From: Gilliamella sp. wkB7
GTDB lineage: Bacteria; Pseudomonadota; Gammaproteobacteria; Enterobacterales; Orbaceae
Length of the DNA stretch: 64,000 nt
NCBI RefSeq assembly: GCF_001693435.1
Contig: NZ_CM004509.1
Coordinates: 2,790,001-2,854,000, forward strand
Reading direction: 5' to 3'
Program-made: the position numbers and the translations under genes
Shown here: positions 32,310-39,734 of the stretch, piece after piece
How the letters are laid out: every line of letters starts with the position of its first letter
How positions within the stretch are numbered: position 1 is the stretch's first letter
Notes under the pieces: generated by a model
Database searches by the model: none
Seen by the model: only the letters and a program-made list of their open reading frames with translations
Told to the model about the DNA's origin: nothing

Positions 32310-34283
32310 ATGAATACTAAGTTTAAATTGGCAGCACATGTCATTAACACTAGTCTTTTATTATCATTGTCTGGCATTGCTGTGGCTGCAAGCGATAAAG
32401 ACACAGATACCATGGTAGTGACAGCATCAGGATTTTCACAGCAAATTAAAGAAGCACCGGCGACAATTTCAGTGATCACACCAGAAGAAATTAGCAAAAA
32501 ACCTTATCGTGATGTGACTGATGCACTTAAAGATATTCCGGGTGTTACTATAACTGGTGGCGGTGATTCGACAGATATTAGTATTCGTGGTATGGATGCA
32601 AAATACACTTTATTATTAATTGATGGTAAAAAAGTCAGCACACGTGAAACAAGACCTAATAGTGATAACTCAGGTTTTGAGCAAGGCTGGTTACCACCTT
32701 TAACTGTTATTGAACGTATTGAAGTTGTCCGTGGACCTATGTCTTCTTTATATGGTTCAGATGCCATGGGTGGGGTAGTTAATATTATCACTAAAAAAGT
32801 GTCTAACAAATGGCACGGTGGTTTACGCATTGAGTCAGTTATTCCTTATCGTGCAGATGAAAAAAATACCTATATTGGTAGTTTCTCCACCATGGGACCT
32901 ATAATTGATGATATTTTGGGTATTCAGTTATATGGTCAATATACCAAGCGTCATGAAGATAAATTCCTAAATGGTCATTCGGCACAAAAATTACGTAGCC
33001 TAAATGGTAAAATATCGCTTAATGCAACTGAAACACAAACATTTGATCTCGACTTTGGGCGATCTTTACAAAATAGTAATGCTACAGGTGGTAAAACAAG
33101 ACCAGTTAATCGTGGCGATTTTAATCGAGATAACCGTCGCAACTCTTTTGCTTTGACTCATAATGGTTTATTTGGTGATGTCTCAACGACATCTTTTATT
33201 GCTCATGAAAGTAATAATAATCCAGAAAGAAAAATGAAAATTCGTAATACCAATGTTGACTCTCGTGTGACCATTCCTTTCTCGATTAATATGTTAACCG
33301 CTGGTGGAGAATATACTTATCAAGAACTTCACGATAATGGTAATCAGTTAAATAAAAAATTAACAAAAATCGATCGTTGGAGTTATGCATTCTTTGCTGA
33401 TGATGAGATCAGAATTATCGATAATTGGAGTATTACTGCCGGCGTACGCTATAATAAAGATGAAAACTACGGTCATAACTGGAATCCAAAGATTTATAGT
33501 GTCTGGAATATTGATGATAACTTTACTTTAAAAGGTGGTTACTCAACTGGATTTGCAACACCACAACTACGCCAAGTTGTTTCAGACTGGGGACAAGTTA
33601 CAGGTGGATCAGGAACAGGTAATAAAGGGATGATAATGGGAAATCCAAATTTAAAACCTGAAAAAACGAATTCATTTGAAATGGGTGTTGGTTATACCAA
33701 TGAATATGGTGTTGATGCATCTGTAACAGCTTTTTATACCAAATATAAAGATAAAATCCAATCTTATTATATTTGCCGAGGTGAAGCTGGATCTAGAAAT
33801 TGCCAGATCAATGGTTATCGTGAAAAATTTGATTTTGTTCAGGGGCGTGAGAATGTGGATAAAGCAGATCTTAAAGGTTTAGAGCTATCATTCAAAACAC
33901 CTCTATTTACTGATTTCTTATTAAGTTCTAACTATTCTTGGAATAAATCAGAACAAAAAACCGGAAAAAATAAAGGTAAACCTTTAAACCGTACACCAAA
34001 GCAAAAATTCAATACTCAACTTGATTGGTATGTAACTCAAGAATGGGATTTATGGACTAAAGTTGCTTATTATGGCGTCGAAAGTACAACAGATCGTAGC
34101 GGTAAGAAAATTGAATATCCAGGCTATACTTTCTGGGATGTAGGTGCATCTTTCCATATAAATAAAAATGCTAAGATTTATGGTGGAGTTTATAACTTAT
34201 TTGATAAAGATGTTTCAAACGCTGACTTTGGTAAAACTTTAGAAGGTCGACGTTACTTTGTGGGTACTGAGATTAACTTCTAA
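32310..34283 (+). CDS. cirA: TonB-dependent catecholate siderophore receptor (CirA-like)
   Basis: 657 residues from ATG at 32310, which gives a clean signal peptide ending GIAVA; an in-frame upstream start at 32256 would add 18 residues and spoil it. TonB box DTMVVTAS follows the cleavage site. Plug domain: PATISVITPEEI, VSIRGMD-like ISIRGMDAKYTLLLIDGKK, and IERIEVVRGPMSSLYGSDAMGGVVNIITKK. The 22-strand barrel ends RRYFVGTEINF with a terminal Phe. Best resemblance is E. coli CirA, a receptor for linear catecholates and colicin I. Ligand here is unproven. Confidence 0.9.
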   Translation: MNTKFKLAAHVINTSLLLSLSGIAVAASDKDTDTMVVTASGFSQQIKEAPATISVITPEEISKKPYRDVTDALKDIPGVTITGGGDSTDISIRGMDAKYTLLLIDGKKVSTRETRPNSDNSGFEQGWLPPLTVIERIEVVRGPMSSLYGSDAMGGVVNIITKKVSNKWHGGLRIESVIPYRADEKNTYIGSFSTMGPIIDDILGIQLYGQYTKRHEDKFLNGHSAQKLRSLNGKISLNATETQTFDLDFGRSLQNSNATGGKTRPVNRGDFNRDNRRNSFALTHNGLFGDVSTTSFIAHESNNNPERKMKIRNTNVDSRVTIPFSINMLTAGGEYTYQELHDNGNQLNKKLTKIDRWSYAFFADDEIRIIDNWSITAGVRYNKDENYGHNWNPKIYSVWNIDDNFTLKGGYSTGFATPQLRQVVSDWGQVTGGSGTGNKGMIMGNPNLKPEKTNSFEMGVGYTNEYGVDASVTAFYTKYKDKIQSYYICRGEAGSRNCQINGYREKFDFVQGRENVDKADLKGLELSFKTPLFTDFLLSSNYSWNKSEQKTGKNKGKPLNRTPKQKFNTQLDWYVTQEWDLWTKVAYYGVESTTDRSGKKIEYPGYTFWDVGASFHINKNAKIYGGVYNLFDKDVSNADFGKTLEGRRYFVGTEINF

Positions 34284-34346
34284 ATAAATTGAACTAATAA
34301 ATATTTTTCTGTGAAAAAAGGTGGCTGTTCAAACACCCATCTTTTT

Positions 34347-34497
34347 ATGTTCCCTGTATGCAGAGGGATAAACCGGGGACTACTCGGGCAGAGGTTGAGG
34401 CACAAACATGTTCCCTGTATACACAGGGATAAACCGAAATATCACCCAACCTGTTTTTCATTATCCACATGTTCCCTGTATGTACAGGGATAAAATA
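34347..34497 (+). CRISPR. CRISPR array A (type I-E-like repeats, 3 repeats, 2 spacers)
   Basis: Repeats at 34347-34375, 34408-34436 and 34469-34497, spacers 34376-34407 and 34437-34468, both exactly 32 bases. The repeat opens ATGTTCCCTGTA and closes CAGGGATAAACCG, the type I-E form; in the third the last bases are changed to AAATA. First base is A where array C has G, and the first repeat has an A in place of C in the 3' arm. No leader of the array C kind precedes it; cirA ends 63 bases upstream. Likely an old, inactive array. Confidence 0.88.
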
Positions 34498-34509
34498 CAA
34501 AACTACTAC

Positions 34510-34532
34510 AAACCGCTCGCATGGCGGTTTTT
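34510..34532 (+). terminator. Intrinsic terminator ahead of secreted-protein gene 1
   Basis: Stem AAACCGC / GCGGTTT with a 7-base loop, then TTCATTGCC. It closes whatever is transcribed across array A. The bases after it resemble those after the terminator at 35304-35327. Confidence 0.75.
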
Positions 34533-34594
34533 CATTGCCAAACTTTATTAAATAACATACCATTGCAAAAAAACATAAAGAATAAGGAAATGAT

Positions 34595-35266
34595 ATGGAA
34601 AAGATTATTTATTGTTTGTTGTTATTCCCATTTTTTGTATTTGCTGATGATTTCTATAATTGTAAATATGCAATGGGTATTGAAACAGAAGAAAATCTAA
34701 ACTATTTGGCGAATGCAACTGTTCGGGTAACCAATGATAGATTTGTTGCTCAAGATTTAACACACAAGGAGCATAAATCGCCTAAATTTACAGAGTTTAC
34801 AGAATTTGCTGATAATTTATCTATTGCAGAGGACTCAGAGAAAGTATATGTTCTGGCAAATGATAGAACAAAGTATGTGATTACGACTAAAATAAGTAAT
34901 CTTGTTTTTAAATGGGGTAATTGTACTCTTGATTTATCTATTGACTTCGAGAATGAAAAATTTGGTAACAAACCAGTAAATTTTTTTCCTAAGATAAAAT
35001 CGTATTTTCGGGACGTATTGAAAGATCCTGATTCTGCAAAATATTCTAACATTTCTAAACCTCAGAAAGATTTCATAATTGAATATGGAAAGGTTATCAC
35101 CGGATATTCGGTCTGCCTATATGTCAATGCTAAAAATTCATTTGGCAGTTACACAGGAAAAAAATTATATTGGGCTTTCTTAAAAGACAATAAATTATTA
35201 AGAGTAAATGATGCGCAAGATTCAATAGTAATAACCCGATGGCATAATATTAGTTGTAGCTATTAA
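34595..35266 (+). CDS. Secreted protein of unknown function (signal peptide, C-terminal DPDSAKY domain)
   Basis: 223 residues. Signal peptide MEKIIYCLLLFPFFVFA, then an N-terminal beta-rich part with a Cys pair region (YNCK, GNCTLD), and a C-terminal domain with LKDPDSAKY, VCLYVNAKNSFGSYTGKK and a late WAFLKDN. I recall the 'DPDSA...VNAKNSFGGYTG' block from small uncharacterised bacterial and phage lipoproteins; its function is unknown. AAGGAA precedes the ATG. Its upstream region and signal peptide are closely related to those of the next gene. It lies between CRISPR arrays A and B. Confidence 0.75.
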   Translation: MEKIIYCLLLFPFFVFADDFYNCKYAMGIETEENLNYLANATVRVTNDRFVAQDLTHKEHKSPKFTEFTEFADNLSIAEDSEKVYVLANDRTKYVITTKISNLVFKWGNCTLDLSIDFENEKFGNKPVNFFPKIKSYFRDVLKDPDSAKYSNISKPQKDFIIEYGKVITGYSVCLYVNAKNSFGSYTGKKLYWAFLKDNKLLRVNDAQDSIVITRWHNISCSY

Positions 35267-35303
35267 AAATATTGTTTTTTAGCATAAAGTATCAAATCAA
35301 TTC

Positions 35304-35327
35304 AACCCTCTAACGAGGGTTTTTTAT
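35304..35327 (+). terminator. Intrinsic terminator between the two secreted-protein genes
   Basis: Stem AACCCTC / GAGGGTT with loop TAAC and TTTTATT. It is followed by ATTGCCAAAAACTATTAAATAAA, closely matching the sequence after the terminator at 34510-34532. Confidence 0.85.
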
Positions 35328-35386
35328 TGCCAAAAACTATTAAATAAAATAATATTGTAAATAAATGTAAAGATTTAGGAAATGGT

Positions 35387-35863
35387 ATGAAGAAAATTAT
35401 GTTTTGCTTGTTGTTTGTCCCCTTTTTTGTTTTTTGCGACTCAGTAAAAACCGGTAACTGGATAGTTGATATCAATGAAGACCCTATTACTGATGAGAAA
35501 ACAGTTAGAATCTTCACGCTTGATAAAACAAAATTGAATAATGAAACTGCTGCGTTTTTATTTAATTGTAATTCAGTTAGCCTCTTATCATTTGATATAA
35601 ATGATTTACCAAAAATAAATGAAAGAGGAAATTCAACAAAAGTCGTATTAAGAGTGGACAAAAAAACTCCCATTGAAATGGATTGGACTAAAGAAGAGAT
35701 AGGATATGAATTTTCGGATATTAATGAAATTAATAATTTGATAAAAAAAGGGAAAAAGTTAGTGGTTAGAGCTGAATTTTCAAAAACTAAAGATTTTGAG
35801 TTCTCTCTAGCTGGCTTTGCAAAAGCCTATAAAAAATTGCAAAAAAATTGTTCTACCAACTAA
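35387..35863 (+). CDS. Secreted protein, TagO/VasI-like
   Basis: 158 residues with signal peptide MKKIMFCLLFVPFFVFC. The mature part has GNWIVDINEDPITDEKTV, an LFNCNS motif with a central Cys, WTKEEIGYEF, and a C-terminal FSLAGFAKAYKKLQKNC. That order (W...sP...D, RC/NC strand, W-S, F-x-x-x-G, terminal Cys) is the pattern I know from the TagO/VasI-like family linked to type VI secretion accessory proteins and from phage-encoded relatives. No secretion genes are nearby, so the role is open. It ends three bases before CRISPR array B. Confidence 0.7.
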   Translation: MKKIMFCLLFVPFFVFCDSVKTGNWIVDINEDPITDEKTVRIFTLDKTKLNNETAAFLFNCNSVSLLSFDINDLPKINERGNSTKVVLRVDKKTPIEMDWTKEEIGYEFSDINEINNLIKKGKKLVVRAEFSKTKDFEFSLAGFAKAYKKLQKNCSTN

Positions 35864-35866
35864 TCA

Positions 35867-35956
35867 ATGTTCCCTGTACGCGCAGGGATAAACCATATTT
35901 GACGTAATACATAGTGGTTTAGATCCTATATCCCCTGTGCACACAAGGATAAATCG
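35867..35956 (+). CRISPR. CRISPR array B (2 repeats, 1 spacer, decaying)
   Basis: Repeats 35867-35895 and 35928-35956 around one 32-base spacer (35896-35927). The first repeat has CGCGCAGGG in its middle and ends ACCA; the second is heavily changed (ATATCCCCTGT ... AAGGATAAATCG). It starts three bases after the stop of the upstream secreted-protein gene. Same orientation as arrays A and C. Confidence 0.8.
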
Positions 35957-36054
35957 GCAAGCATCAATATTACATAGTATTTTTTGCTATTCAAAAATCG
36001 CAATTATATATTTCATTATTTACCATTTATTAATTACATGAAAAATATAAATTT

Positions 36055-36217
36055 ATCGGTAGAATCTCGTGCAATCTAATTTTAATTTACATTAATTTTA
36101 ATTAATCTAATAAAAACATATGGTTATAGATATTGATTTTAATAAAAAATAGCTTAAAAAATCGGTAGAAATTTAAAAGTCAATATTTTAATTATAAAAC
36201 AGTATGTTATAATTAGA
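36055..36217 (+). promoter_or_regulatory. CRISPR leader of array C
   Basis: AT-rich region with two copies of TCGGTAGAA (36056 and 36162), AGCTTAAAAAATC (36151-36163) and AGTATGTTATAATTAGA directly before the first repeat. The E. coli type I-E leader has GGTAGA, GCTTAAAAAATC and GGTTATGTTTAGA in the same order, so this is the leader-proximal end. TATAAT at 36207-36212 could be the -10 of the array promoter. Confidence 0.7.
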
Positions 36218-36429
36218 GTGTTCCCTGTACACACAGGGATAAACCGTACTCTTGTTGCTGCAAATAAAGCGCGAGAGCGTGTTCCCTGTACACACAGGGA
36301 TAAACCGCTATAAAATACGCTGATTCAATGGCTACCTCTGTGTTCCCTGTATACACAGGGATAAACCGTATTCCACATGAGGGGCATTCAAATTCATCAT
36401 GTGTTCCCTGTACACACAGGGATAAACCA
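36218..36429 (+). CRISPR. CRISPR array C (type I-E, 4 repeats, 3 spacers)
   Basis: Repeats 36218-36246, 36279-36307, 36340-36368 and 36401-36429; three spacers of exactly 32 bases. The repeat opens GTGTTCCCTGTA and closes ACACAGGGATAAACCG, with the CCCTGT / ACAGGG hairpin arms. One repeat has TATACA in place of TACACA, and the last ends ACCA, marking the leader-distal end. It is the best preserved of the three arrays and has a recognisable leader. No cas gene is in the window. Confidence 0.95.
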
Positions 36430-36497: not shown

Positions 36498-37088
36498 ATG
36501 TGTGCATCTAATAAGGATAACTTCCCAAAAAAATTAATAAAAACTCCACTAAAAAATGGATTCTATTATAATAGAAGACCAAATAATAAAGTTGACTTTT
36601 CTAATCTTCAGACTTTTCCCACATTTTACAGTCGTCATGACAACTTTTTGTGGATCAAAGAATTTGTTTTTTATAAAAATGGTATTCGAGTATGTGTTTT
36701 TCATGATGTCGCAATTAACCTAGAAAAAACAATTATAATGATAGGAAAATTCGAAGTTGAACTAAAATATTTGCTAGAGCTAAAACGTCGAAATGGAGGT
36801 AGAGATTCTCTAATCGCTTTAGCCAATGAAGTAAAAAAAACAATTGACTCAGTTAATCAGATTCAATTTAAACTTACACTTACACCATGGACATATTCAT
36901 CCACGATTATTGATAATACATTAGTCCGCGCAGAGACAAAAAGAGATTCGCTTAATTATACATTACTTTTAGCAGAGAAAATAAGAGATTTACTTAATAA
37001 AATTAAGGCAAATGGAGTTTATCTTGACAAAGATAATAACTCGGATTCAATTATAGTCAGTGCTAAATGGTTAAAAAAAGATTGGTAA
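36498..37088 (+). CDS. Uncharacterised protein downstream of CRISPR array C
   Basis: 196 residues, not recognised. No signal peptide or membrane segment. The N-terminal half is mixed with aromatic residues (FPTFYSRHDNFLWIKEF), the middle has a basic-acidic helix (ELKYLLELKRRNGG), and the C-terminal third is helical with a Lys-rich end (SAKWLKKDW). AAGGA at good spacing before ATG 36498. It follows the array by 68 bases on the same strand, where cas genes might be expected, but shows no motif of Cas1, Cas2, Cas3 or Cascade subunits. Confidence 0.65.
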   Translation: MCASNKDNFPKKLIKTPLKNGFYYNRRPNNKVDFSNLQTFPTFYSRHDNFLWIKEFVFYKNGIRVCVFHDVAINLEKTIIMIGKFEVELKYLLELKRRNGGRDSLIALANEVKKTIDSVNQIQFKLTLTPWTYSSTIIDNTLVRAETKRDSLNYTLLLAEKIRDLLNKIKANGVYLDKDNNSDSIIVSAKWLKKDW

Positions 37089-37524: not shown

Positions 37525-37601
37525 TGGTACGCCCGGGTGGACTCGAACCACTGACCCCCACCATGTCAAGGTGATGCTCTAACCAACTGAGCTACGGGCG
37601 T
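37525..37601 (-). tRNA. tRNA-Val (anticodon GAC)
   Basis: 77 bases on the minus strand. Acceptor stem ACGCCCG / CGGGCGT with discriminator A and encoded CCA; D arm TAGCTCAGTTGGTTAGAGC; anticodon loop CTTGACAT gives GAC; T loop GGTTCGAGTCC. Matches E. coli tRNA-Val(GAC) except in the stems. Confidence 0.95.
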
Positions 37602-37886: not shown

Positions 37887-39734
37887 TTGGTTAATATGTC
37901 GATAAAAGATCAGATTGAAGATGTTTTACACAATGTATTTGGTTATAAATCATTTAGAAATCAACAAAAAGAAATTATTGAATCAATTATCGATGGACGA
38001 GATACATTAACAATTATTCCAACTGGTGGAGGAAAATCGTTATGCTATCAAATTCCTGCGGTACTATTGCCAAGCACTGCGTTAATCATTTCCCCATTAA
38101 TTTCATTAATGAAAGATCAGGTTGATCAATTGCTTGCTAACGGTATTCCGGCTGCGCTTCTCAATGCTACCCAGTCCTTGGCAGAACAGCAAGAGGTAGT
38201 TGAAAAATATTTAAATCACTCGATAAAATTATTATATATCTCTCCTGAAAGGCTTGCCGTAGGTTCATTTATATCAATGATTCAAAGCCATCCCCCTTCA
38301 CTTATTGCGATTGATGAAGCTCACTGTATATCACAATGGGGGCATGATTTCAGACCTGATTATCGACAATTAGGGCAGTTGTCCTCTCGATTTCCGAACG
38401 TTCCGATTGTTGCATTAACCGCCACCGCCGATAAGATGACACAAACGGATATCATTCATCAACTTCAATTGGTCGATCCTTTGGTTGTTGTTCGTAGTTT
38501 TGATCGCCCCAATATTCGATATACCGTTGTTGAAAAATTTAACTTAACAGAACAAGTAGTCTCTTTTATTGAAACGCAAAAAGGAAATAGTGGAATAATT
38601 TATTGTTCTAGCCGTTCCAAAGTTGAAGATATGACAACTCGACTTGCCAGTCGGGGATTTTCTGTTATGGCTTATCATGCAGGGCTTACTTACAGTGAGC
38701 GTCAAATAGCGCAGGAAGCGTTTTTAAAAGATAATGTGCAAATCATTGTCGCTACCGTTGCATTTGGAATGGGGATTAATAAACCTAATGTAAGATTTGT
38801 CGTGCACGCTGATTGTCCTAGAACTATCGAAGCCTATTATCAAGAAACGGGCAGAGCGGGGCGAGATGGCGTCCCAGCAGAAGCAATCTTATTGTTTAAT
38901 AAAAATGATTTAAATTGGTATTATCAACAAATCGCCGAAAAAGCAGATGGGGTACATAAAGAGATTGAACAACATAAAATTGAGGCTATGGAATCATTTG
39001 CTCAAAGTTTAACTTGTCGACGAATTGTATTGCTTAACTATTTTGGCGAAAAACGAACGGAGCCTTGTAATAATTGTGATATCTGTCTTTATCCACCTGA
39101 ACAATACGATGGCTTAGTTGATGCACAAAAAGTTTTATCTTGCATTTATCGAGTAGAACAACGTTATGGTGCACAATACATTGTCAATGTTTTACGAGGT
39201 TCTGCTCGTTCTCAAATTAAAGAAAATGGTCATGATAAACTGTCCGTTTATGGTATTGGTAAAAGTCAATCTAGTAATTATTGGTTAAGTGTGATTCGAC
39301 AGCTAGTTCACTTAGGTTATTTAATTCAAAATATTTCAACGTCTTCAAGCTTGCCAACCTTACAATTAACTCAAGAAGCTAGAAAAATACTTAGAGGTGA
39401 AATTCCTTTATCGTTAGCCAAACCTCGTCTTGAAATTGTTAAGAAAAGCCGTCTAAATCGTTATGCTCGATCAATAAATATGACAGCAATGTTATCTTTT
39501 GAAGAACGTATGTTATTCAATAATCTTAAACGATTACGCAAAGATATTGCTGATAGTGAAGATGTACCACCTTATATTATTTTTAGCGATGCAACATTAT
39601 TAGAAATGGTACAAACAACACCAGCAAGTAAAAAAGAGCTGATAAATGTTACTGGGGTTGGAAAAATCAAATTGGAAAAATATGGCAATCTATTTTTAGA
39701 GGAAATTAAAGATTTTATAATGAAAAATATATAA
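37887..39734 (+). CDS. recQ: ATP-dependent DNA helicase RecQ
   Basis: 615 residues. Walker [13 protein letters not shown] (residues 44-55), DEAH box [17 protein letters not shown], motif [14 protein letters not shown], the zinc-binding C...CNNCDIC, the RQC winged helix and the C-terminal HRDC domain. Acts in recombination repair (RecF pathway) and fork restart. TTG at 37887 lies 9 bases after AAAGGGG; the ATG at 37896 is 18 bases away, so I took the TTG, though the ATG cannot be ruled out. Confidence 0.95.

Follow-up and report, generated by a model that had tools for sequence, protein, structure and literature searches.

Integron cassettes occupy slots that are delimited by short repeats, and the cargo of these slots is exchangeable. 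Recombination at CRISPRs was considered in a paper of 2010, the authors of which we take to be Touchon and Rocha. In passages of that paper, which deal with cas loci in Escherichia and Salmonella, it was proposed that loci next to CRISPRs may be replaced through recombination at the CRISPRs, which might also persist after the loss of cas genes and offer a hotspot for integration (PMC2886076). Orphan effector/immunity arrays of the T6SS, as described in passages of two further papers, are variable sets of orphan toxin and immunity genes, some of them in Gilliamella, that are moved by recombination, the mechanism described being one in which the 3′-ends of genes are displaced in rhs and vgrG (PMC5361080; PMC8125069). 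T6SS toxins are treated in parts of both bee T6SS papers, the first of which includes orphan Rhs toxin domains in Gilliamella, and the word CRISPR is absent from the main text of the two (PMC8125069; PMC5727410). Among the open-licence PMC papers listed by our searches, no published link of CRISPR arrays to the T6SS or to gene cassettes was found; recombination at CRISPRs was proposed for cas loci as early as 2010, and no description of repeat-bounded cassettes of secreted and PAAR-type proteins was found among the papers listed.

The locus described here lies within 64,000 nucleotides (C1:2790001–2854000; hereafter, the window) of the genome of a Gilliamella, a bacterium of the bee gut, which comprises 2.9 Mb in one contig (G000). 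As CRISPR arrays, the arrays of the window are ordinary: they are trans arrays of a complete type I-E system and share with other type I-E systems whose arrays are distant from cas the 29-nt repeats, the 32-nt spacers, an AT-rich leader, a degenerate distal repeat and a complete cas set. In contrast to those systems, the Gilliamella arrays are small and multiple and alternate with protein-coding cassettes. The presence of secreted-protein and PAAR-type genes in places between CRISPR repeats is a recurring arrangement, and the comparison of species points to the CRISPR repeats themselves as the places where the gain, loss and swapping of these genes occur. Our main reading, to which we assign a probability of roughly 0.6, is that the locus consists of repeat-bounded gene cassettes and that direct CRISPR repeats and leaders recombine with one another to exchange them. 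Short-repeat-delimited slots with exchangeable cargo are common to these loci and to integrons, but no integrase-like ORF was seen in the interval, the slots are formed by CRISPR repeats, and several of the cargo genes come with a terminator and a 5′ region of their own. Recombination at CRISPRs is common to this reading and to that of the 2010 paper, at least as the latter is set out in part of the text, whereas the Gilliamella loci differ in having several sites at which secreted-protein and PAAR-type genes lie between repeats, with their edges on the repeats (PMC2886076).

Arrays, leaders and cas genes

The nine palindromic 29-nt type I-E repeats of the window are located at 34347–36429, all on the + strand, and fall into groups of three (array A; starts at 34347, 34408 and 34469), two (array B; 35867 and 35928) and four (array C; 36218, 36279, 36340 and 36401). 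The spacing inside each group is 61, corresponding to a 29-nt repeat plus a 32-nt spacer, and there are six whole spacers (two in A, one in B and three in C). The initial annotation, which had recognized three arrays of 3 + 2 + 4 repeats with 32-base spacers in one orientation, and six spacers in total, is correct on all of these points and in its positions. Compared with GTGTTCCCTGTACACACAGGGATAAACCG, the repeats of array C have 0–1 mismatches, those of A have 2–7, and those of B have 4 and 6. A search of the genome for the repeat core at ≤3 mismatches gave 44 matches, versus 0 for a control sequence read backwards, indicating that the repeats of the window did not arise by chance.

The conserved left flank of the site is a TonB-dependent receptor gene (32313–34283, + strand; Pfam Plug and beta-barrel), the start codon of which was chosen at 32313 within a frame that is open from 32256. 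It is followed, on the same strand, by array A (34347–34497), which has three repeats, two spacers, no leader and a decayed last repeat; by two cargo genes, discussed below; by array B (35867–35956), a repeat-spacer-repeat; by the leader of array C (35957–36217); and by array C itself (36218–36429), with four repeats and three spacers. Downstream of C, a gene at 36498–37088 (+ strand), which has no repeat to its right, encodes a 196-aa protein of no recognized kind, for which no family was found in Pfam, NCBIfam or PADLOC. The conserved right flank is an ORF at 37887–39734 (+ strand; taken from the ORF list), which we take from its sequence to be a recQ-type helicase gene and which is also present downstream in G014 and in loci L085 and L088. 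A gene for tRNA-Val (gac) lies between array C and this ORF, at 37525–37601 on the minus strand.

A leader, which is approximately 260 nt long and adjoins the first repeat, is present at array C only, and A and B are leaderless; the earlier description of A and B as degenerate and leaderless, and of C as possessing a leader, therefore holds, as judged by the mismatch counts and the comparison of leaders. Over approximately 316 nt, the C leader shares approximately 86–87% identity with the leaders at 977.6 and 2730.6 kb; at all three sites of the genome the homology begins in an upstream repeat located 290–293 nt before the array (repeat-to-repeat distances of 290, 293 and 291). Therefore, the second repeat of B (35928) belongs to the leader unit of C, of which it forms the conserved upstream edge, and the interpretation of B as an isolated decayed array was mistaken.

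A different role for B, as a CreTA-type regulatory mini-array whose crRNA-like RNA would guide Cascade to repress a neighbouring gene, is very improbable. With two degenerate repeats and one spacer, B has the size described for CreTA in part of the relevant source (PMC9458426), but its spacer has no seed-plus-PAM match in the 64 kb (at least 10 of 11 seed positions), the equivalent repeat pairs at the other two sites of the genome carry unrelated spacers, and one repeat only precedes the three leaders of the 977-kb site in G011 and the leader in G014. Repeat pairs before the leader are present in G004 and at another site of G011. Spacers A1, A2, C2 and C3 likewise have no seed-plus-PAM match within the 64 kb, and C1 has a single one (10/11 seed positions, 15/32 overall), which was equalled by one of five shuffles. 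CreTA-like control by B was rejected on the basis of the missing seed match in the window.

The best match of the C leader in other genomes is the leader at the orthologous site of G014 (91% over 286 nt), which is also its best relative over the full 287 nt, and the C leader is 87–91% identical to those leaders of other sites and species that are nearest to it. Among 65 leaders, the nearest one is found in the same genome in 25 cases and in another genome in 37, the remaining three having no second leader in their own genome. Leader relationships follow site orthology only in part and do not prove movement. An IHF site in the leader was rejected as a signal, as it is hardly informative in such AT-rich DNA, the best match having one mismatch in 56 and none in nine of the 65 leaders, versus one in 39, none in four and two in 22 of 65 letter-shuffled leaders.

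The profiles of cas8e and cas3 match the genome only outside the window, and a tblastn search of the window with the seven Cas proteins of the distant operon gave no match, while a positive control worked; the absence of cas genes from the 64 kb was correctly noted at the outset. A complete type I-E operon (cas8e-cse2-cas7-cas5-cas6e-cas1-cas2) with its own array is located 1.6 Mb from the window. The genes cas8e, cse2, cas7, cas5, cas6e, cas1e and cas2e exceed the NCBIfam cut-offs; cas3, the core of which exceeds its own cut-off, lies approximately 10 kb from the operon. Because the genome contains a complete cas set, array C can be served in trans, which bears out the option of Cas proteins encoded elsewhere that the initial annotation had left beside that of a relic; the reading as a cas-less relic was discarded as unneeded. 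Similarity between the C leader and the leader next to the cas operon is limited to approximately 106 nt (76%), so that the service of array C by this operon, which is probable, is deduced from the shared repeat. The genome has four repeat regions, at 977.2–977.9 kb, at 1190.8–1191.4 kb (beside the cas operon), at 2725.6–2731.8 kb and in the window, and the leader pattern is present in 21 of 35 genomes from across the genus.

Breakpoints at the window site and at other array sites

On the left flank of the window site, the homology of three relatives (G011; L082, from G. apis NO3; and L084, from a MAG) ends at 34346–34348, and array A begins at 34347; the other five of the eight left-flank relatives stop at or just after the stop codon of the TonB receptor gene, 59–64 nt before A. 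G014 is colinear again from 35927, and the second repeat of B begins at 35928. The orthologous site of G011 contains a single leader-plus-array unit with no protein module upstream. Relatives in which A to C form one normal array had been envisaged in the initial annotation; one array, not three, is indeed present at the orthologous site of G011 and G014, but A, B and C joined as one array were not seen in any relative examined.

These observations bear on the explanation offered initially, namely that a single insertion of a secreted-protein module divided an old array, which is now in decay, and that the CRISPR repeats had no part in gene movement. The decayed and leaderless state of A and B is consistent with such a split, as is the single array of G011 without the module upstream, and the module itself is present in the window; however, it separates A from B and not B from C. 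Moreover, the insertion was initially treated as a local event, but interleaved secreted and T6SS-type genes, with cargo other than that of the window, are found again at several sites and in other species, where the junctions are also at repeats, and a single split is accordingly unlikely.

In G011 (L101), the array at the window's orthologous site is followed, approximately 1.1 kb downstream, by a lipoprotein gene resembling that of the 2.73-Mb site. In G014, inspection by eye of a stretch located upstream of the leader (L096, 6508–7069) revealed an apparent broken start of a PAAR-type gene and an insertion-sequence-like stretch between two single repeats.

At the 977-kb site, the alignment of G000 with G004 is identical in 192 of 200 columns once the terminal repeat begins, versus 62 of 138 ahead of it. 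G004 has an extra 6.4 kb that ends at the terminal repeat; on it lie an array, genes for a PAAR protein, a lipoprotein and small membrane proteins, and two other ORFs. The flanks of G000 and G011 at the same site are common up to the first repeat and from the second repeat of a repeat-spacer-repeat, and 8 kb with two leader-array-PAAR units is located between those repeats in G011. At the 2.73-Mb site, G012 and G029 agree in 192 of 200 columns after the terminal repeat, versus 65 of 133 before it, and the slot from the array to the terminal repeat is empty in G012, the array of which includes the terminal repeat, and occupied by a 213-aa lipoprotein in G029; with the same flanking gene, G000 and G011 have a 168/164-aa lipoprotein in the corresponding place, their terminal sequences not aligning to G012. 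The module consisting of leader, array, lipoprotein and terminal repeat occurs twice in G029, 22 kb apart (L142, 8246–9426; L143, 7002–8185), the two copies having 733 of 813 aligned cargo bases identical, the same last spacer and a homology that ends inside the terminal repeat. At a fourth site, beside a gene that is presumably birA-like, G029 has one array and G012 has two with 7 kb between them, and the single array of G029 matches the start of one G012 array and the end of the other. For seven breakpoints, the product of the interval fractions within 5 nt of a repeat is 2.3e-7, a value that is a guide only, as the breakpoints were chosen by hand and alignments tend to end where both sequences have a repeat.

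The anatomy of direct repeats, the presence or absence of segments between species, the breakpoints at repeats and the occurrence of different cargo in the same place are all seen directly at these sites. We infer that homologous recombination, and not another enzyme, is the agent, and we infer the direction of each change, the order of events being unrooted. The proposed model has two layers. In the first, array C and its leader constitute a normal trans array, for which transcription, processing and extension could be provided by the distant cas operon, and A and B are leaderless decayed pieces. In the second, the repeats in direct orientation and the leaders, present at several places, would serve as homology for recombination between arrays, by which intervening DNA would be lost and array-carrying DNA would be added at another array. 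The outcome would be repeat-bounded gene cassettes in place of a very large spacer; in the window, the cassette would be the two signal-peptide proteins between A and B, each equipped with a terminator and a 5′ region of its own. A point against this model is that 29 nt is a short length for recombination by RecA. In the 14 fetched stretches with two or more arrays, when each array is required to have at least two repeats and the gaps to be <9 kb, the arrays face the same way in all 14, stretches L091 and L092 being one site; outside this rule, two arrays located 18 kb apart in G007 (L155) face opposite ways. A single orientation is needed by the recombination model, yet it also follows from duplication in place.

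If the exchange of repeat-bounded cassettes is real, the arrays would be more than spacer stores and would shape the secreted and competition genes of a strain, scattered cas-less arrays would gain a possible use, and differences between strains in the presence of cargo should break at repeats. For annotation, short arrays interrupted by genes may then be cassette sites and not relics. A tentative extension, to which we give less credence, is that the dispersed Gilliamella arrays also act as a platform on which competition genes are exchanged in the manner of integron cassettes, an exchange that the nicking of leader-repeat junctions during spacer acquisition may stimulate. The repeats and leaders of such a platform would be the crossover sites, the cassettes would sit between tandem arrays or in the slot ahead of the terminal repeat, and phage immunity and neighbour immunity would evolve at the same sites.

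Cargo genes and their association with repeats

The cassette of the window begins with a cargo head (34512–34594, + strand), read from the sequence as a terminator-like hairpin, an ATTGCC...TAAATAACATACCATT block and the 5′ untranslated region of cargo gene 1 (34595–35266, + strand), which encodes a 223-aa protein with a signal peptide according to a home-made rule. A second copy of the head (35304–35386, + strand), identified by a terminator scan, comprises a terminator-like hairpin and the 5′ region of cargo gene 2 (35387–35863, + strand), which encodes a 158-aa protein with a signal peptide and a weak VasI-like match. The head copies belong to a 117-nt direct repeat, 79% identical, that precedes each cargo gene, and the coding parts look as if they had been swapped behind a common head. 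A loose form of the block occurs 13 times in the fetched loci; the block begins 13–55 nt past the last repeat at five arrays, including A, and lies mostly ahead of lipoproteins. Cargo genes 1 and 2 have a similar terminator, 5′ region and signal-peptide start, the remainder of the genes not being detected as a repeat.

The protein encoded by cargo gene 1 has only sub-threshold Pfam matches, its C-terminal part resembles 120–156-aa proteins encoded away from repeats, and 0 of 12 homologues besides the query lie near repeats. For cargo gene 2, the match to Pfam VasI (E 7.7e-5) is below the cut-off of that family, and relatives of the gene adjoin repeats in four other genomes; the fold model of the 158-aa protein (pLDDT 79) had no PDB match at E ≤ 0.001, and a search by sequence gave none that was convincing (best E 0.43). 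NCBIfam and PADLOC provided no name for any cargo of the window, and no T6SS effector was found there, the sub-threshold VasI match being the only hint; a T6SS sheath gene is present elsewhere in the genome. The cargo may take part in, or protect against, contact-dependent competition.

At 2725–2732 kb, arrays alternate with a PAAR protein, a 265-aa protein and its DUF7079 neighbour, an OB-like (tRNA_anti-like) secreted protein and a lipoprotein, and the sister sites carry PAAR, DUF4225 and DUF7079 domains. In G011, two regions made up of twelve and six groups of repeats contain PAAR proteins, small membrane proteins that occur repeatedly, and DUF7079 in three copies; one PAAR protein tested carries DUF4225, and the DUF7079 copies are never directly beside a PAAR gene. 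Similar array-cargo sites are found in G004, G012, G015 and G029, not all of them with PAAR genes.

Proximity to a repeat (≤1.5 kb) was found for 5 of 10 loci of the 158-aa family, 6 of 11 of the OB-like family and 4 of 8 of the DUF7079 family (4 of 9 when a dropped weak fragment is counted). Together, 15 of 29 loci of the three families are thus linked (12 of 26 without the query copies), compared with a baseline of 0.7% of the bases of this genome, the family copies in related genomes not being independent and two of the 15 linked copies (G018 and G006) having a single repeat only. Among ORFs of 120–300 aa, a signal peptide or lipobox is present in 15 of 29 that are located between arrays versus 63 of 424 flanking ones (Fisher p 1e-5), a count that relies on a simple home-made rule and treats related genomes as separate. 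A secreted first gene on the same strand is found downstream of the array in 18 of 92 cases and upstream in 14 of 92, which is little difference.

The other 14 of the 29 copies of the three families are away from repeats, and 80 of 85 PAAR matches lie outside array clusters and five inside (coordinates compared by eye), with two further PAAR matches (G034 and G033) located approximately 2.3–2.5 kb from a leader or repeat. These copies and PAAR genes away from repeats indicate that the cargo does not depend on CRISPR. They would also be expected if arrays and T6SS or secreted genes had gathered in plastic regions as hitchhikers of other mobile elements, a reading that gains something from two ORFs in one G011 cluster (L092) that we take to be transposase-like. 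This explanation is nevertheless quite improbable, given that inspection by eye of the ORFs of ≥70 aa between the TonB receptor gene and recQ in the window revealed none resembling a transposase or an integrase, and that the edges lie on repeats at several sites.

Spacers

Of the 671 spacers in the fetched loci, 606 are 32 nt long. The six spacers of the window have no match in 35 Gilliamella genomes except themselves; four of the six, searched as exact 22-mers against viral contigs, gave no match, and none of the six, within a query of 41 spacers, matched a phage at E ≤ 1. Pairs of spacers that are identical or differ by one mismatch between different sites of the same genome were found among the 671 in G012 (two pairs; C7/C38), G016 (C6/C41), G021 (C24/C25) and G029. 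The shared spacer of G029 is the last one, next to the duplicated lipoprotein gene, and the others possibly reflect independent acquisition. The terminal spacer at C1:2731715 of G000 (L034) contains 24 nt that are identical to part of the tRNA-Met genes of Yersinia and Cobetia phages (E 0.03), the match being reported as 25 nt with one base running into the next joined spacer.
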